Origin: Streptosporangiales bacterium
GTDB taxonomy: Bacteria > Actinomycetota > Actinomycetes > Streptosporangiales > WHST01
NCBI GenBank assembly: GCA_009379825.1
Contig: WHTA01000026.1
Coordinates: 1-64,000, forward strand
DNA: 64,000 bases
Direction: 5' to 3'
A model generated the notes under the pieces. The model was not told where the DNA came from. It searched no databases and was given only the letters and a program-made list of their open reading frames with translations. The position numbers were made by a program, and so were the translations under genes. Shown one piece after another: positions 56,354 through 64,000 of this stretch. Position 1 is the stretch's first letter, and each line of letters starts with the position of its first letter.

Positions 56354-56908
56354 CTACCCACCGGCCAGCGGCCAGGCGGCGACGGTCTCGTACCGCGGCT
56401 GCGGCCCGAGGTGGCTGCGTACGAGCGCGACCTCGGTCGCCCGCCAGTCGGGTCCCCGGTAGTCCTCGAGCTGCGCCACCTGTGCCCGTACGTCACACGG
56501 CTGCTTCTTCGCCCGGCCGACGGTGAGGTGCGGGCGGTAGGTGCGCTCGTCCATGGCCAGCCCGACGCGGCGGCCGGCCGCCCCGAGCGAACCGGCCAAC
56601 CTGACAAGCGGCTGCCGGTCGCCGGTCACCGCCAGCCAGAACACGCTCGCCCTGGCCCGGCGCGGGAACGCACCCGCGCCTGCGAACGCCAGCGTCAGCG
56701 CCGGGTGCCGGCTGCACGCGCGTGCCAGCCGCGCCTGCAGCCGCTGCGCGACGACGTCGGTCACCTCGCCGTAGAACGCCAGCGTCAGGTGCATCCTGGC
56801 GGCCGACTCCCACCGCAGCTCGGGCAGCTGTCGGCGGGCCTCGGCCAGCGCCTCGTCGACCTCGGCGAGCACCTCGGCCGGTGGCACCAGCGCGGCGAAC
56901 AGCCTCAT
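56354..56908 (-). CDS. thpR: RNA 2',3'-cyclic phosphodiesterase (LigT/ThpR)
   Basis: A 184-residue 2H phosphoesterase. The two HxT motifs are ARMHLTLAFYGEV and TYRPHLTVGR. MRLFAALVPPAEVL is the family start. It opens 2',3'-cyclic phosphates on RNA or tRNA fragments. The ATG at 56908 overlaps the MFS stop (ATGA), so it is in the MarR-MFS-thpR operon. Confidence 0.92.
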   Translation of the reverse strand: MRLFAALVPPAEVLAEVDEALAEARRQLPELRWESAARMHLTLAFYGEVTDVVAQRLQARLARACSRHPALTLAFAGAGAFPRRARASVFWLAVTGDRQPLVRLAGSLGAAGRRVGLAMDERTYRPHLTVGRAKKQPCDVRAQVAQLEDYRGPDWRATEVALVRSHLGPQPRYETVAAWPLAGG

Positions 56909-58251
56909 TCCGCCTGGCGGGAGGACGCCAGCGCCGGCTGACCGGCCGTGCGTACGTCGATGTCGGTCACGGTCACGACCGCATCCTCCTCCCGCGTGCG
57001 CTCCACGTCCCAGTGTGGCAACGGCCGCACCCGGGGACGTATCCGCATGCCCTGCTTCCGCGCGAGCACCGCGGTGACCACGACCGTCGCGACGACGCAG
57101 ATGATCCCGCCGCTGATCAGACCCCACTGGGCACCGAGCAGGCCGGCGATCCAGCCGACAAGCGGCGCCCCGATCGGCGTGCCACCCATGAAGACCAGCA
57201 TGTACAGCGACATCACCCGGCCGCGCATCGACGGCCGTGTCTGCATCTGGACGTACGCGTTCGCCGTAGTGGCCATGCTGATGGCGAACACCCCGATCGG
57301 CACCAGGATCGCCATGAACGTCTCGTACGTCGGCAGCAGCCCGGCGACGATCTCCAGCACGCCGAACAACACCGCGGCCTGCACGAAGAACCGCGCCCGC
57401 GGCCGCGCACGGCGAGCGGCGAGCAGCGCACCGGTCAGCGAGCCCACCGCCATCGCCGTGGCCAGCAGCCCGAACGCGCCCGCGCCACGGCCGAAGACCT
57501 CCTTGGTCATCAGCGCCATGGTGATCTGGAAGTTGAACCCGAACGTCCCGACCACACCGACGATGATGATCGGCAGTAACAGCTCGGGCCGCTCACGTAC
57601 GTACCGCAGCCCCTCCCTGAGCTGGCCCGGCTCCCTGGACACCCGGTCCGGCAGCCGCAGCTCGTCGGCGCGCATCAGCCGCAGCCCGACGACCACCGCG
57701 GCGTACGAGGCCGCGTTGATGAGGAAGACCGGCCCGGTGCCGACCAGGCTGATCAGCACGCCGGCAACCGCGGGGCCGACGATGCGCGCGGTGTTGAACG
57801 ACGCGCTGTTCAGCGCGACCGCGTTGCTGACCTCCTGCTGCCCGACCATCTCGACCACGAACGCCTGCCTGGTCGGGTTGTCGACGGCCGTCACGATGCC
57901 GAACGTCAACGCCAGCGCGTACACGTGCCAGACCTCGACGACGCCGGTGAGGTTGAGCAACCCCAGCGTCACCCCGACGACGGCGAACGCGATCTGCGTG
58001 GCGACCAACAGCTTGCGCTTGTCGAGCCGGTCGGCGAGCACGCCACCCCAGAGACCGAACAGCAGCAACGGCAGGAACTGCAGACCCGTGGTGACACCGA
58101 GCGCCACACCGCTGTTGCCGGAGAGGTGGAGCACCAACCAGTCCTGTGCGATGCGCTGCATCCAGGTGCCGACGTTCGAGACGATGGCACCCGACCAGTA
58201 GAGCCGGTAGTTCCTTACCCGTAGTGACCGGAAGGTGTTCGGAAGCCTCAT
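56905..58251 (-). CDS. MFS transporter (EntS/DUF894-like)
   Basis: A 448-residue major facilitator with about eleven or twelve helices. RSLRVRNYRLYWSGAIVSNV is the start typical of this group; WGGVLADRLDKRKLL is the loop 2-3 motif, and NPTRQAFVVEMV and SLGTGPVFL-like stretches follow (here SLVGTGPVFLINA). A charged C-terminal tail is present. Such proteins export drugs or siderophores. It is the second gene of the MarR operon, 42 nt after MarR. Confidence 0.9.
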   Translation of the reverse strand: MRLPNTFRSLRVRNYRLYWSGAIVSNVGTWMQRIAQDWLVLHLSGNSGVALGVTTGLQFLPLLLFGLWGGVLADRLDKRKLLVATQIAFAVVGVTLGLLNLTGVVEVWHVYALALTFGIVTAVDNPTRQAFVVEMVGQQEVSNAVALNSASFNTARIVGPAVAGVLISLVGTGPVFLINAASYAAVVVGLRLMRADELRLPDRVSREPGQLREGLRYVRERPELLLPIIIVGVVGTFGFNFQITMALMTKEVFGRGAGAFGLLATAMAVGSLTGALLAARRARPRARFFVQAAVLFGVLEIVAGLLPTYETFMAILVPIGVFAISMATTANAYVQMQTRPSMRGRVMSLYMLVFMGGTPIGAPLVGWIAGLLGAQWGLISGGIICVVATVVVTAVLARKQGMRIRPRVRPLPHWDVERTREEDAVVTVTDIDVRTAGQPALASSRQAE

Positions 58252-58293: not shown

Positions 58294-58755
58294 TCATGCG
58301 GTGGCGAGCTTCTCCAGTACGGGGACGGCGGCGCGTAGTGCGTCGCGTTCGGCAGGAGTGAGCTCTTTCAGGCGTTGTGCGAGCCAGGCGTCGCGTCGCT
58401 TGCGGTCCTCCTTGATCAGCCGGCGCCCCTGGACCGTCGGCGCGAACAACGCCTGCCGGCGGTCGGTCGGGTGCGCCGTGCGTTCGACCAGCGCCCGCTG
58501 CTCGAGCTGCGCGACGATGCGGGTCATCGACGGCGGCTTCACCCGTTCGCGCCTGGCCAGCTCGTTCAGGGCCAGCGGCCCGTGCTGCTCGAGTGTCGCC
58601 AGTGCCGCCACCTGTGTGGCCGGCAGTGCGTCGAGCTCGGCGGCCCGCTGCGCACGCAGCCGGCGCGACAACCGCATCACGGAGATACGCAACGTGCTCG
58701 ACAGCGCAGCGTTCGTCCGCACTGCGGACCTGAGGGAATCGTTTACGACGCGCAC
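58294..58755 (-). CDS. MarR-family transcriptional regulator
   Basis: A 153-residue winged-helix regulator. ALNELARRERVKPPSMTRIV is the recognition region and HPTDRRQALF the wing (DxRxxxxxLT-like). It likely represses itself and the MFS exporter behind it. The GTG at 58755 stands almost at the predicted transcription start. A perfect palindrome sits inside the promoter. The first 25 residues vary in the family, so a later start is possible. Confidence 0.9.
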   Translation of the reverse strand: MRVVNDSLRSAVRTNAALSSTLRISVMRLSRRLRAQRAAELDALPATQVAALATLEQHGPLALNELARRERVKPPSMTRIVAQLEQRALVERTAHPTDRRQALFAPTVQGRRLIKEDRKRRDAWLAQRLKELTPAERDALRAAVPVLEKLATA

Positions 58756-58832: not shown

Positions 58833-60284
58833 TCAGCCGAGGCCGAGCAGCTTCTCGATCGGTGCGATGGCGAAGTACAGCGCGAACAGAGCCCCGACGA
58901 CCCACATCAACGGGTGGATCTCCCTGGCCCGCCGCTGCGCGACCCTGATCACCACGTAGCTGACGAACCCGGCCCCGATGCCGTTGGCGATCGAGTACGT
59001 GAACGGCATCACCACGATGGTGAGGAAGGCCGGGATGGCGACCCCGGAGTCCTTCCAGTCGATGCCGGTGACCTGGGTCATCATCAGGAACCCGACGACG
59101 ACGAGGGCGGGCGCGGCGGCCTGCGAGGGGATGACCTCCACCAGCGGAGCGAGGAAGATGGCGAGCAGGAAGAGCAGCCCGGTGACGATGCTCGCCAGCC
59201 CGGTACGTGCACCCTCACCGACGCCCGCGGTCGACTCCACGTAGGTCGTGTTCGACGAGACCGACGACGCGCCGCCCGCGATGGCGGCGATCGAGTCGAC
59301 GAACAGCACCCGACCGATGCCGGGCAGCCGGCCGTGCTCGTCGAGCAGGTTCGCCTCCGCGCCTACCCCGACGACGGTGCCCATGGTGTCGAAGAAGTCG
59401 GAGAGCATCAGCGAGAAGATGAGCAGGATCACGGCGAGCACGCTGATCCTGGTGAACGACCCGAACAGGCTCACGTCGCCGATCAGGCTCAGATCGGGCA
59501 GCCGGAACGGGTCCGTGGGGACGGCGGGCACCGCGTTGCTCCAACCGCCTGGCTCCTCCGGCGCGACTCCGATGTCGAAGATCGCCTGCACGACGAACGC
59601 GAGGACCGTGGCGGCGACGATGGCGATCAGGATCGCGCCGCGCGTCTTGCGGGCGACGAGCACGGCCATCAGCAGCACGCCGAAGACGAAGACGACGATC
59701 GGCCATCCCGTCAGCTGGCCGACGACGCCGAGCTGGAGCGGCACGGTGCCCTGTTCCGGGCGGGAGACGAACCCGGCGTCGACGAAGCCGATCAGTGCGA
59801 TGAACAACCCGATGCCGACGCTGATGGCGGTCTTCAGCTGTCTGGGGATCGCGTTGAACACGGCGGTGCGGAACCCGGTGACTACGAGGATGGTGACAAG
59901 CACCCCCTCGATGACGACCAGCCCCATCACCTCGGGCCAGCTCAACGTCTTGCTGATGACCAGCCCCGCGACGAAGCCGTTGATGCCGAGGCCGGCGGCG
60001 AGCGCGAGCGGGTACCGTCCGACGACGCCCATCAGGATGGTCAGCACACCGGCGACGAGCGCGGTCACCGCCGCCACCCGGCCGGGCCCGAGCACCGTGC
60101 CGTTCATGTCCGGGGCGTTCCCGAGGATGATCGGGTTGAGCACGACGATGTACGCCATCGTCATGAACGTCACCAGCCCGCCGCGGAGCTCCCTCGCGAC
60201 GGTCGAGCCGCGGGCACTGATCGCGAAGTACCTGTCGACAGGACCACGCGCTGCCGCGGCGTCGCGTTGAGCGGTCTCACTCAT
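58833..60284 (-). CDS. NCS2-family purine permease (AzgA/guanine-hypoxanthine type)
   Basis: A 483-residue permease with about twelve to fourteen helices. RGSTVARELRGGLVTFMTMA starts it; NPIILG, AAGLGINGFVAG, SDFFDTMGTVVGVG and GGASSVSSNTTYVESTAGVG are AzgA-type NCS2 motifs. It imports adenine, guanine or hypoxanthine with protons. ATG at 60284 has GAGGAG upstream. It follows the MarR gene region on the same strand but has a separate upstream gap, divergent from the DUF2530 gene. Confidence 0.92.
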   Translation of the reverse strand: MSETAQRDAAAARGPVDRYFAISARGSTVARELRGGLVTFMTMAYIVVLNPIILGNAPDMNGTVLGPGRVAAVTALVAGVLTILMGVVGRYPLALAAGLGINGFVAGLVISKTLSWPEVMGLVVIEGVLVTILVVTGFRTAVFNAIPRQLKTAISVGIGLFIALIGFVDAGFVSRPEQGTVPLQLGVVGQLTGWPIVVFVFGVLLMAVLVARKTRGAILIAIVAATVLAFVVQAIFDIGVAPEEPGGWSNAVPAVPTDPFRLPDLSLIGDVSLFGSFTRISVLAVILLIFSLMLSDFFDTMGTVVGVGAEANLLDEHGRLPGIGRVLFVDSIAAIAGGASSVSSNTTYVESTAGVGEGARTGLASIVTGLLFLLAIFLAPLVEVIPSQAAAPALVVVGFLMMTQVTGIDWKDSGVAIPAFLTIVVMPFTYSIANGIGAGFVSYVVIRVAQRRAREIHPLMWVVGALFALYFAIAPIEKLLGLG

Positions 60285-60449
60285 GGCGAACTCCTCGCAG
60301 GCGTGCGGCACGCGGACCGGGTGCCGCAGAACAGCCAGACGACGACGTCTACCGGGCACCGAGAAGCCTGCCAGAACGCGTTGCCAGAAGGCGAGCAGAT
60401 CACCCGTGCGCGCGGGCGGCCGACACGTGAACGTGATGACTCGTCCGGG

Positions 60450-60455
60450 TAGGCT
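60450..60455 (+). promoter_or_regulatory. -10 element of the DUF2530 gene, likely leaderless
   Basis: TAGGCT ends 7 nt before the GTG at 60463. No Shine-Dalgarno sequence fits between them. No good -35 was found. Confidence 0.45.
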
Positions 60456-60462
60456 GGCGGAC

Positions 60463-60690
60463 GTGCCTGACCCACGGCCACGCCACTCCAGCCCGCCACC
60501 GCTGCGGCCCAACGCGCTGCTCACGGTGGCGATCATCACCTTGCTGTGGATCGTCGCGCTCGTGGTGCTGTTGGTCTTCGGCCACCTGCTGCCGGTCGAC
60601 GACCGGTGGTGGCGCTGGGTCTGCGTCGCCGGCATCGCCCTCGGCCTGATCGGCATCGGCTACTTCGCCCGCAGCCCGTTCCGCCGCTGA
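60463..60690 (+). CDS. DUF2530 membrane protein
   Basis: A 75-residue protein with a proline-rich N-terminus and two predicted helices: LLTVAIITLLWIVALVVLLV and WWRWVCVAGIALGLIGIGYF. The WxWxCVAGIALGLxG segment is the DUF2530 signature, an actinobacterial family of unknown function often found beside NCS2 permeases and the sacsin-like gene, as here. It converges on the latter with an 8-nt gap. Confidence 0.85.
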   Translation: MPDPRPRHSSPPPLRPNALLTVAIITLLWIVALVVLLVFGHLLPVDDRWWRWVCVAGIALGLIGIGYFARSPFRR

Positions 60691-60698
60691 CCCCGTCC

Positions 60699-63600
60699 TT
60701 ACGGCCAGGCGTCCAGGCGGGCTTCGGCCAGTAGGTCGGCGATGGGGGTGTCGCCCGACAGGAGGGCGGCCAGCAGGTGGCGCTGCTCCCAGTGCCCGCC
60801 CGCCCAGGCGACGCCGCGGGCCAGGCCGGTCAGCGACGCCGCGTGGATCTCGCCGTCGACGTAGCGCCAGTCCGCCGCGGTGCCGTCCACGACCAGCGGG
60901 TCGTGTGCCAGGTAGCTGGCAGGCGCGCCTGGCACCACACCGCGCACCAGGTCGGGTACCGGCTCGACGTCGCCGGTGGACTCCACGTGGCCCGACACCA
61001 GCTCGCTGGCCAACGGCAGGTCGAGCAACGCCGCCAGCCGCACCACCCGGTCGCGCCGGACGGCCACGACCGGTCGGTCGCCGAGCAACGGCAACAGGTC
61101 GGGCGCGTCGAGCACGACGACGTCCGCGGCGTCCACGACCACCGTGCCCGTCCCCTGCACCACCCGCAGCCGCTCCGGCGGCTGGACGTCGACGTCGGGG
61201 CCGTCGGCGAGCGCCGAGTAGAGGCCGTGCAGCTGCACCGGCGTCACCGACCGTTCCGCCTCGACCAGCCGCGCCAGCAGGTCCGCCACACCCGACGCCT
61301 CGCTGAGCAACGCCGCCACGGTCGTACGCACACCCACCGCCGCGAGCAGCGCGGTGTCGCCGGCCGGCGCCTCGTCGTAGAGCGCCGCGAGCAGCGGGTC
61401 CGCGTCGGCCGTACGCAGGTCGGCCGGTCGCCTGCCGTCCACGATCGGGCTGGTGCGCAACCACCACGCGGTGTACGAAGGCACCAGGCTGCGCCGCCCG
61501 TCGCCGAGCAGCACGGTGGCCGGCTCCACGATCGCCGCCCGCAACGTCGGCTCGCCGAGCAACCGCAACGCGTCGCCCCAGCGGTCCGGCGCCACCAGGT
61601 CGAGATCGCGTACGGCGACGAACTCCACGAGCACCGGCGGCACGTCGTCGGCCGCGCCGAGCACGGCGAGCGTGTCCTCGATCCAGGCGTCCTCGCCGTC
61701 GAGGTCGTGGTCGCACTCGTCCGGGTCGAGCGGCAGGTCCTCGTCGCGCACGATGGCGAAGTTCTCCACCACACCCACGCGCGCCAGCGTCTCCCCGCCC
61801 CACTGCTCCGCCAGGTCGGCGGCCACCGCGCCGAACGGGGCGTCCGCGGACACCACCTGCGCCATCGGCCCGTCAGGGAGCAGCAGCTCGTCCGCCACCC
61901 GCACGTCGCCGTCGCTGTCGCGCAGCGCCAACGCCGCCAACCACGGCTCGTCGCCGGGCTCCAGCGTGCTCGCCCGCACGGCCGGCAGCACCGCGGCCGC
62001 CACGACCTCCGGGTCGTCCGCCTCGTACGAGCCGGCCACGGCCGCGCGCACGTGCGGGTCGTCGAGCACCGCGCGCCAGTTGCCTTCCACGGCCCCGAGC
62101 CGGCCGAGCAGCGGGTGCACCGCCTCGGCGTCGACGACCCGTACGCCCAGCGCGCTCAACGCCTCGACGTCGAGGTCGGCCGTCGGCAGCAGCACGCCGC
62201 GCGGGCCGCGTACCGTACGGCCGTCGGCCAGGGGTACCGGCAGCGCCGGCAGCGCGTCGCGGTCGACGGACTCCAGCTCCGCGTACACCCGCTGCCACCA
62301 CGCAGGGTCCCGGCGCAGGGTGGCCAGCAGGTCGACGACGTCGCCGAGCCCGAGCTCGCGTACGCCCAGCAACCGCAACGCGGTACCGCGGTGCGACCAA
62401 CCGGCGGGCAGCAGCCCCGGCAGCACCTCGGCGAGTACGTCGATCAGGCCGGCGGGGACGTCGGCGGCCGTCGCGTCCGGCGGCACCACCGCGGGCCCGG
62501 CGGCCGCGGTCGGCAGGAACGCCCGGCCGGGCAGCGCGTCGTGCACCGCCTGCCGCACCTTGCCGTCGAGCACCCCCGCCGACACCGGGCCGGGTACCAG
62601 CTCGAGTACGGCCGGGTCGGCGGGCAGCGCGGTCACCAGGTCCGCGTACGTCTCGGCCGCCTGCGTCACCAGGTAGTCGGTGAGCGCGCCAGGCGCCACG
62701 TGCCGGCGCGCCGGGTCGAGCGGGAACGACGCCAACAGCAGGGCCGGTACGTCGACCGGCTCGTCGCTCGGCGTCGGCCCGTGCAGCACCGGTGACACCC
62801 CGGCGGGCAACGGCCGCGGCAGGTCGTCGCCGGACAGCGGCACCGCCCACCGCACCGACCAGTGTGGCCTGGCGCGCTCCTCGGCCGGCCGGTCGGCGAG
62901 CAGCTCCTGGTCGAGCTCGCCGGCGCGGGTGGCGATCCGCCAGCGCGTGACCACCCCGCCGTCGTCGGTCTCCACCAGCGCACCTGACTCGTCCCAGCTG
63001 GCGCGTAGCTCGCGGACGACACCGGAGTACGTCAGCTGCACCGTTCGCAGAGCCGGCAGGCCGAGCAACAGGGCCGGGCCGACGTCGACGAGCAGCCGGT
63101 GCGCGTACTCCTTCGCGGCGGCGTCGCGCAGCGGGAGCACGACCTCCGTGTCGTAGCCGTCGGGCGGCGCCTCGTCGCAGGGGTACGGCAACCGCAGTGC
63201 GGGGACGTGCCCCTCGCGGCGGCCGAGCTCGTCGGCGAGCGCGGGGACGGCCGCCACCTCGCCCGCGACGGCCGGTCGCGACCAGGCGACGCCGCCGGAC
63301 GTGGAACGGATCCGCGGCTCGTCGCTGACCGATAGCACCGCGGCGAACCCGACACCGAAGCGCCCGGTCGTCGGTCCCTCGCGCTTCGCGGACGCACGCA
63401 ACGTGGACAGCGACTCCACCCCGGCCGCGTCGAGCGGCGCACCGGCGTTGACAGCGCGCAGCTCGTCGTCGTCGAGCACCAGCCGCAGCCGGCCGGGCAC
63501 GCCGGCCGCGATCGCGGCGTCCGCCGCGTTCTGTGCGAGCTCGACGACCAGCCGGTCGCGGTACGCGCCGAGCGCGTAGTCCTCCTCGGCGTTCGCGTCC

Positions 63601-63707
63601 TCACGGAACCGCGCAGGCGCCGCCGACCATGCGGCGAGCACGCGGGCGCGAAGCGTCGCGGTGTCGAAGTAGTCCGCGGAGTCGGCTAGCCCGCGCGCCT
63701 CGCCCAT
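60699..63707 (-). CDS. large sacsin-like GHKL ATPase-domain protein
   Basis: A 1002-residue cytoplasmic protein. The N-terminal about 250 residues resemble the Hsp90/sacsin N-terminal ATP-binding fold: RDRLVVELAQNAADAA (E/N of the ATP-Mg box), LRAVNAGAPLDAAGVESLS and TTGRFGVGFAAVLSVSDEP (the glycine-rich lid). The remaining 750 residues show no recognised domain. The family has been noted in actinobacteria as sacsin N-terminal ATP-binding-like proteins, with a chaperone or DNA-related role assumed but not shown. ATG at 63707. It stands next to a DUF3027 gene on the same strand, 14 nt away. Confidence 0.85.
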   Translation of the reverse strand: MGEARGLADSADYFDTATLRARVLAAWSAAPARFREDANAEEDYALGAYRDRLVVELAQNAADAAIAAGVPGRLRLVLDDDELRAVNAGAPLDAAGVESLSTLRASAKREGPTTGRFGVGFAAVLSVSDEPRIRSTSGGVAWSRPAVAGEVAAVPALADELGRREGHVPALRLPYPCDEAPPDGYDTEVVLPLRDAAAKEYAHRLLVDVGPALLLGLPALRTVQLTYSGVVRELRASWDESGALVETDDGGVVTRWRIATRAGELDQELLADRPAEERARPHWSVRWAVPLSGDDLPRPLPAGVSPVLHGPTPSDEPVDVPALLLASFPLDPARRHVAPGALTDYLVTQAAETYADLVTALPADPAVLELVPGPVSAGVLDGKVRQAVHDALPGRAFLPTAAAGPAVVPPDATAADVPAGLIDVLAEVLPGLLPAGWSHRGTALRLLGVRELGLGDVVDLLATLRRDPAWWQRVYAELESVDRDALPALPVPLADGRTVRGPRGVLLPTADLDVEALSALGVRVVDAEAVHPLLGRLGAVEGNWRAVLDDPHVRAAVAGSYEADDPEVVAAAVLPAVRASTLEPGDEPWLAALALRDSDGDVRVADELLLPDGPMAQVVSADAPFGAVAADLAEQWGGETLARVGVVENFAIVRDEDLPLDPDECDHDLDGEDAWIEDTLAVLGAADDVPPVLVEFVAVRDLDLVAPDRWGDALRLLGEPTLRAAIVEPATVLLGDGRRSLVPSYTAWWLRTSPIVDGRRPADLRTADADPLLAALYDEAPAGDTALLAAVGVRTTVAALLSEASGVADLLARLVEAERSVTPVQLHGLYSALADGPDVDVQPPERLRVVQGTGTVVVDAADVVVLDAPDLLPLLGDRPVVAVRRDRVVRLAALLDLPLASELVSGHVESTGDVEPVPDLVRGVVPGAPASYLAHDPLVVDGTAADWRYVDGEIHAASLTGLARGVAWAGGHWEQRHLLAALLSGDTPIADLLAEARLDAWP

Positions 63708-63721
63708 GCCTCGATGGTCGC

Positions 63722-64000
63722 TCAGCTGTGGCCGAGCTGTTCGTCCGCGCCCTCGGCCAAGTCGGCCTCCTGGTCGGCTGCCGCCGCGGGGGTGCGTGCG
63801 ACGTCCACGATGTCGAACGTCTCCTCGTCGACGGCGGGCACCACCTCCACCGGTGAGGCCTTGTGCTCCACCGCCGCCTCGGAGTGTCCGCCGCAGCCGT
63901 GGTCCAGGCTCACCACGGAGCCGTCCGCCGGCACCATCTCGTTGGCGCAGACACCGAAGAGCTGCCACAGCGAGCCGCCGAGCGGCACGAAGAAGCCACA
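63722..64000 (-). CDS. DUF3027 protein, 3' part
   Basis: The gene continues past the window edge. The visible frame reads CGFFVPLGGSLWQLFGVCAN then EMVPADGSVVSLDHGCGGHS, the conserved C-terminal core of DUF3027, an actinobacterial family of unknown function. An acidic variable tail of about 45 residues follows. The cysteines and histidines in FGVCANE and DHGCGGHSE could bind metal. The DUF3027-sacsin-like pairing is conserved in actinobacteria as far as I know. Confidence 0.85.
   Translation of the reverse strand, partial: CGFFVPLGGSLWQLFGVCANEMVPADGSVVSLDHGCGGHSEAAVEHKASPVEVVPAVDEETFDIVDVARTPAAAADQEADLAEGADEQLGHS

Follow-up and report, generated by a model that had tools for sequence, protein, structure and literature searches.

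A sacsin-like ATPase gene follows a DUF3027 gene

We analyzed a 64,000-nucleotide stretch of DNA from a Streptosporangiales bacterium (the window: positions 1 to 64,000 of contig WHTA01000026.1, GenBank assembly GCA_009379825.1), and in particular a gene near its end that encodes a sacsin-like ATPase with an Hsp90-type fold. This gene lies on the minus strand (60699..63707), with its ATG at 63707 and its end at 60699, and encodes 1002 amino acids. The gene before it, on the same strand and separated from it by just 14 nt, belongs to the DUF3027 family, and the window thus ends with an operon-like pair, DUF3027 and then the ATPase. The 3' part of the DUF3027 gene is within the window (63722..64000), and the remainder is further along the same contig (the whole gene is at 63722-64558). 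We suggest below, tentatively, that the ATPase serves DUF3027.

The open reading frame (ORF) of the ATPase is not a chance one, because all 61 genomes in a sample of relatives from the same genus and order (the relatives sample) have a match. The DUF3027 neighbor is a normal member of its family: it matches PF11228 at 280.1 bits, and the gathering cut-off is 25.

Four more genes lie beyond the stop codon of the ATPase. The first is a convergent DUF2530 gene on the plus strand (60283..60690; PF10745, 36.4 bits), which ends 8 nt from the ATPase's stop and whose true start might be further in. It is followed, on the minus strand, by an NCS2-type permease (Xan_ur_permease; 58833..60281; PF00860, 101.9 bits; the start codon is approximate), an Rv0880-like regulator of the MarR family (58294..58755; PF01047, and NF052438 at 127 bits, which is under that model's cut-off of 220), and a transporter of the MFS_3 type (56905..58251; PF05977, 205.9 bits). 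These are the neighbors that an initial annotation, made from the sequence alone, had named along with DUF3027, and Pfam agrees with every one of them.

Relationship to sacsin and Hsp90

NCBIfam's model for sacsin N-terminal ATP-binding-like domains (NF047352) matches amino acids 50-132 of the ATPase at 73.6 bits, above its cut-off of 50. A search for the ATPase in its own genome gave one match. Pfam's SACS model gives 18.9 bits, which is below its cut-off of 32.8, and it matches 20 of 24 aligned relatives of the ATPase with an E value of 0.01 or better. The closest sequences in the PDB are sacsin SR1 domains (5v47, E = 1.3e-4), followed by HtpG (E = 0.01). Neither of two models for Hsp90 itself recognizes the protein: PF00183 has no match at E up to 1, and NF010683 gives 12.3 bits, far under its cut-off of 455.

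An AlphaFold2 model of the ATPase, built with 44 sequences, has an average predicted local distance difference test score (pLDDT) of 90.4 and a predicted template modeling score (pTM) of 0.63. All of the features described in this section and the next are on the minus strand. The N-domain, at about residues 17-240 (62988..63659), resembles those of Hsp90 and of sacsin SR1: VIA-align placed model residues 29-237 on human sacsin SR1 (5v44) with Z = 14.2 and a root-mean-square deviation (rmsd) of 3.0 over 172 aligned residues. A segment like the middle domain of Hsp90 follows at about residues 250-400 (62508..62960), and residues 29-397 align to Hsp90 (7l7i) across its N and middle domains (Z = 14.4, rmsd 5.2, 284 aligned). 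Topoisomerase VI-B (2hkj) is close behind, with Z = 13.2, rmsd 4.0, and 273 aligned. Since Hsp90 and sacsin score alike and topoisomerase VI-B comes near them, the structural ranking by itself cannot pick among GHKL proteins; the sequence matches favor sacsin and Hsp90 as the closest of them. Longer Foldseek alignments to full-length Hsp90s were not counted, as they had rmsds of 8-22 and low TM-scores. Overall, the initial annotation's description of a 1002-residue protein with an Hsp90-like fold holds up, both in the ORF with its NF047352 match and in the predicted structure.

The rest of the protein, residues 401-1002 (60702..62507), is modeled confidently as an alpha/beta body. No convincing family match was found for residues 400-1002 in Pfam or NCBIfam. 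Among the 50 VIA-align rows listed, the aligned ranges stop at or before model residue 461, so the C-terminal ~600 residues were hardly probed by this search. We did not recognize a C-terminal dimerization domain like that of Hsp90, and the structure search barely probed this region (residues 400-1002). Profile self-comparison gave no sign of a second N-domain. Residues 427-621 and 771-951 have weak similarity to each other (hhalign E = 0.015 with the full profile, or 0.001 on segments), which is only suggestive of an internal repeat.

The domain has already been named by NCBI, and the fold is not new. The DUF3027-linked proteins form a distinct variant: they combine one N-domain and a complete ATP site with a body of 600 residues that is unmatched. 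Like Hsp90, HtpG, TRAP1, and the PRK14083 family, the ATPase has N and middle domains in succession, but it falls below the family models and has Asn instead of Asp at the G1 motif. With sacsin's SR1 or SIRPT regions it shares the fold of the N-domain, the G1 Asn, a Lys in the lid, and a pair of arginines with a strand ahead of it and a long helix behind it (PMC9880540). It has one N-domain, whereas sacsin has three SIRPT repeats. Sacsin also has ubiquitin-like, DnaJ, and HEPN domains (PMC3710099), and in the window's protein, Pfam at E up to 1 found only SACS.

The ATP-binding site is conserved

We scored the conservation of the ATPase's residues in two alignments, with 24 rows (A1) and 44 rows (A3). 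Thirteen candidate functional residues (E56, N60, D63, N87, G89, K108, G115, R116, G118, G120, F121, R334, and R335) are invariant in 24/24 and 44/44 rows, and so are L57 and A64. T187 is Thr in 20 rows of A1 and 42 rows of A3 and is Ser in the others. These residues include counterparts of the ATP-binding residues of Hsp90 and sacsin that are tabulated in PMC9880540, namely E56, L57, N60, D63, A64, N87, G115, G118, G120, and F121.

The N box, E56-L57-x-x-N60-x-x-D63 (63519..63542), would provide the catalytic Glu and the Mg-binding Asn; the equivalence rests on alignment and on Table 1 of PMC9880540. In the G1 motif, N87-x-G89 (63441..63449), Asn replaces Asp79 of Hsp90, as does Asn160 of sacsin. 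The ATP lid, residues 105-116 (63360..63395), contains K108 and is a floppy, low-pLDDT loop in the model. The G2 motif, GRFGVGF, is at residues 115-121 (63345..63365). Finally, R334-R335 (62703..62708) lie in the stretch that joins a strand (323-326) to a long helix (341-359) and are a candidate catalytic arginine loop. Arg474 of sacsin is described as having this kind of setting (PMC9880540), and we infer that R334/R335 are its equivalent.

According to the initial annotation, its idea would be refuted if most relatives had lost the lid and the Asn residues. This was not seen: the N box, the G1 Asn, the lid Lys, and the GxxGxGF motif are invariant in the aligned rows. Because the residues of the ATP site are invariant, the window's protein is likely to be an active ATPase.

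Linkage of the ATPase to DUF3027

The ATPase gene is usually found just downstream of DUF3027. In a set of 47 loci, each taken with at most 1.5 kb of flanking sequence, DUF3027 is upstream and on the same strand in 40; five loci lack DUF3027 in the flank, and in two (L020 and L022) it is downstream and on the other strand. Among 80 named loci, DUF3027 is upstream on the same strand in 71, and within 1 kb in 59. Given start codons chosen by a script, the two genes touch or overlap in 4 of those 71. In seven of the other named loci, there is no DUF3027 in the fetched stretch, which has under 4.0 kb of upstream sequence in each case, and in L089 and L129 it is on the other strand. (L020 and L129, from Thermobifida fusca, are probably the same record.)

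The two best-sampled families are f3 and f5, and we also considered 31 genomes that were hand-picked from outside those families and that are present among the best matches listed for both DUF3027 and the ATPase. In 28 of the 31, the ATPase gene is directly after DUF3027. In two of the misses the genes are on opposite strands and 4-4.7 kb apart, and in the third (G408) they are on two contigs. The conservation of this neighborhood across actinobacteria, which the initial annotation proposed as a check, is therefore strong, and the lack of linkage that would have refuted its idea was not seen. Also, pairwise divergences of the two proteins are correlated (r = 0.88 across the 20 loci that are in both alignments), which fits with co-inheritance of ATPase and DUF3027.

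The ATPase is an optional gene at a fixed site

To describe the distribution of the two genes more broadly, we used a class-wide draw of 393 genomes from 123 genera. DUF3027 is present in 390 of the genomes and in all 123 genera. The ATPase profile matched 183 genomes and 61 genera, but at most two candidates were scored per genome, with E up to 1e-30, so genes may have been missed, and the 183 include at least four genomes that have only long-type relatives. Those four (G554, G562, G660, and G663) are among 10 ATPase-positive genomes that we searched fully; two others, G370 and G504, have matches that are broken by contig ends. G504 is the sole genome that we found to be ATPase-positive without DUF3027, and a contig end falls inside its ATPase gene. 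G584 has two near-full-length matches. In a phylum-wide draw, a search with just the window's protein matched 23 of 296 genomes (two candidates scored in each), and the five matches that fall beyond the class had weaker E values (1e-5 to 3e-21).

We fetched nine clusters that lack the ATPase (L200-L208). DUF3027 and a cold-shock gene are kept in 9/9, and none of the nine has a match to the ATPase. Within the fetched stretch, MarR was matched in seven clusters, NCS2 in six, MFS in five, and DUF2530 in five. In L204, the matches to DUF3027 and DUF2530 are 69 bp apart. Because these nine clusters keep DUF3027 and the cold-shock gene, the ATPase is an optional element, gained or lost as a unit, at a fixed site of an old neighborhood. 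The initial annotation's idea that the pair might have a basic cellular function thus has partial support at most: although DUF3027 is in nearly every genome of the class-wide draw, the ATPase profile matched under half of them, and about half of the genera had no match.

The DUF3027 protein

DUF3027 is on a published list of signature proteins for actinobacteria (PMC4255298). The window's DUF3027 is like other members of the family, such as SCO4330, ML2142, and Rv0877, which is the DUF3027 protein of M. tuberculosis (PMC7781554). The descriptions of DUF3027 that we consulted do not include pairing with a sacsin-like ATPase.

Across 22 aligned rows, C184, C187, C204, C222, and H225 are invariant and resemble zinc ligands, so DUF3027 may bind zinc. 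An AlphaFold2 model of a homologue (L064) was poor (pLDDT 52.7) and is confident only for about residues 30-110. A Foldseek search with this model found nothing below E = 0.001; the best matches were to designed cystatin-like inhibitors (E = 0.086). Sequence searches of the PDB at E up to 1 had no match either.

A cold-shock gene is often nearby. Of the 59 loci for which the upstream sequence extends to 4 kb or more, 57 have a same-strand cold-shock gene no further than 5 kb upstream of DUF3027. In L205, L206, and L208, three genomes that lack the ATPase, the cold-shock match is just 24-168 bp from the DUF3027 match.

In alignments A2 and A4, the DUF3027 proteins of many families end, after a variable linker, in a conserved LGHS at the extreme C terminus, as does the window's protein; ELELVS.DS and DTLSYELVP are recurring tails elsewhere. 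LGHS looks like a short linear motif. Of the 73 named loci whose tail is readable, 69 have a tail with GH, as do 8 of 9 loci from f5 and 15 of 28 from the f3 list, which includes the window's own genus and one genome from f2; the named loci and the f3/f5 loci probably have some records in common. We considered LGHS as a docking tag for the ATPase. The tail is enriched, but this is confounded by ancestry, and it does not strictly track the ATPase. The ATPase is present without a GH tail in 10/10 loci from f82, 7/7 from f6, and 13/28 from the f3 list, and a GH tail is present without a detected ATPase in members of f80, f91, f92, and f9. We did not use the tail as evidence of contact.

In S. coelicolor, the transposon insertions that lowered the production of actinorhodin include more than five in the DUF3027 gene SCO4330 (PMC6585502). 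Because a same-strand ATPase gene follows after ~260 bp in Streptomyces violaceoruber (L137), it is possible that these insertions have a polar effect on the gene downstream.

What might the ATPase do?

We propose that the gene encodes a working sacsin-type ATPase clamp, with the Hsp90 fold, and that this clamp is an accessory partner that serves DUF3027. We would give this a probability of roughly 0.4. Behind it stand the predicted Hsp90-like fold, the invariant residues of the ATP site, the operon-like linkage to DUF3027 at one recurring site, the correlated divergence of the two proteins, and the many genomes that have DUF3027 but no match to the ATPase. The ATPase activity, the contact with DUF3027, and the chaperone role are all inferred. 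The protein would bind and hydrolyze ATP; as in Hsp90, closure of the lid together with R334/R335 would power a clamp-like motion; and the ~600-residue C-terminal body would hold DUF3027, or a complex that contains DUF3027. The ATP cycle would then alter the conformation or stability of DUF3027 or of its complex, and DUF3027 would be a client or an adaptor of the ATPase. The window's own genome has no match to PF00183 or NF010683, and as judged by these two models, the ATPase is the only Hsp90-type ATPase that there is room for in most genomes of the relatives sample.

Several observations weigh against this proposal. Adjacency and co-inheritance are not proof of physical contact, and we found no ATPase assay, mutant of the ATPase gene, or interaction data in the literature. 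In roughly half of the genera sampled, DUF3027 is present and no ATPase was detected. The two genes are over 2.5 kb apart in 10 Streptomyces loci, and they have opposite orientations in Thermobifida fusca (L129), Streptomyces antibioticus (L089), L022, L024, G484, and G492. Among loci that we hand-picked from the matches listed, the GH tail is present in 7 of 48 that were counted as ATPase-less (that is, outside the ATPase positives of the class-wide draw and with no N-terminal match in the fetched stretch), and of 41 ATPase-positive loci from families other than f3 and f5, 17 have it and 24 do not.

Alternatively, the ATPase might take the place of HtpG as a general chaperone in the cytosol, with DUF3027 as a mere passenger of a stable region of the chromosome. 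The Hsp90 N plus middle fold would suit this role, and so would the content of related genomes: in the relatives sample, only 17 of the 61 genomes have an Hsp90 chaperone over the cut-off of PF00183 or NF010683 (PRK14083), and 44 lack one, while all 61 have the ATPase. Nevertheless, we think that a stand-in for HtpG is unlikely, given that 17 genomes have both kinds of protein, that 210 of 393 genomes in the class-wide draw have no match to the ATPase profile, that the protein matches neither Hsp90 family model, and that the tight linkage to DUF3027 is retained across distant families.

Another idea is that the protein is a GHKL ATPase that acts, along with DUF3027 and the upstream cold-shock protein, on nucleic acid or on a transcription or RNA complex. 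The structural match to topoisomerase VI-B, the recurrent cold-shock gene, and the effect of the SCO4330 insertions are all compatible with this. But in its sequence and the details of its motifs, including the Asn at G1, the ATPase is nearest to sacsin and Hsp90, and Pfam found no nucleic-acid-binding domain in either the ATPase or DUF3027, so we consider this to be quite unlikely.

A role in defense against phage, like TmtA from PADLOC-DB, seems improbable to us. The TmtA profiles do match the N-terminal part of the ATPase (best E = 3e-30, at residues 28-364), and in their N-terminal 300-500 residues, TmtA and similar long bacterial proteins are like the ATPase. Also, longer sacsin-like relatives, with reading frames of ~1,550-1,650 amino acids, are found in some of the same genomes. 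However, the TmtA profiles have 1,302-1,782 positions, while the window's protein has about 1000 residues and is linked to DUF3027. In a tree of the N-terminal region, 24 DUF3027-linked proteins are separated from 12 other relatives, the long ones among them, by a branch with support of 100/99 (L056 was left out, and the taxa do not include any TmtA sequences themselves). Unlike a mobile defense gene, the ATPase recurs at one site among csp, NCS2, MarR, and MFS genes and is in every genome of the relatives sample, and DUF3027 has no match in PADLOC at E up to 1. We did not find the meaning of the name TmtA in the open-access literature, for which the top rows of the longer result lists were covered.

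That the protein is an ATP-binding relic or a scaffold without turnover is very improbable: the replacement of the G1 Asp by Asn and the low ATPase activity of recombinant SIRPT1-SR1 from sacsin by itself (PMC9880540) would fit, but every aligned row has the catalytic Glu and both arginines of the pair, and a larger piece of mouse sacsin, which also has this Asn, equaled yeast Hsp90 in activity (PMC9880540).

An ATPase clamp that serves DUF3027 thus remains our preferred explanation. A more elaborate form of it is a long shot: a dedicated Hsp90-type machine of actinobacteria, with DUF3027 as its zinc-binding client or co-chaperone and LGHS as a docking tag where it is kept, that would be the only Hsp90-like ATPase in lineages without HtpG and would be coupled to the upstream cold-shock gene.

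The DUF3027-ATPase partnership looks worth testing. DUF3027 is a signature protein for which we found no function in this analysis, and a large ATPase that some lineages have and others lack at one site behind it provides a direct handle, as lineages or mutants with and without the ATPase could be compared. Should the protein prove to be active, it could also serve as a compact model, from bacteria, of the sacsin module; mutations of that module occur in a human ataxia, and it is difficult to study at full length. Our search of the open-access literature, which covered the top rows of the longer result lists, found no study of the ATPase or of the DUF3027-ATPase pair.

Long relatives and rearranged loci

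Long sacsin-like relatives in actinobacteria include L059, L060, L187, L188, and L195. In the f82 genome L209, the cluster with DUF3027 and the ATPase is more widely rearranged. The spacing between DUF3027 and the ATPase exceeds 1 kb in 12 of the named Streptomyces loci. In L079, L091, L104, L106, L125, and L136, which are from Streptomyces, 3.5-8 kb separates the two genes. Some of the ORFs in these gaps seem to encode helix-turn-helix proteins, small proteins of the WFKSSYS type, and small HATPase-like regulators.

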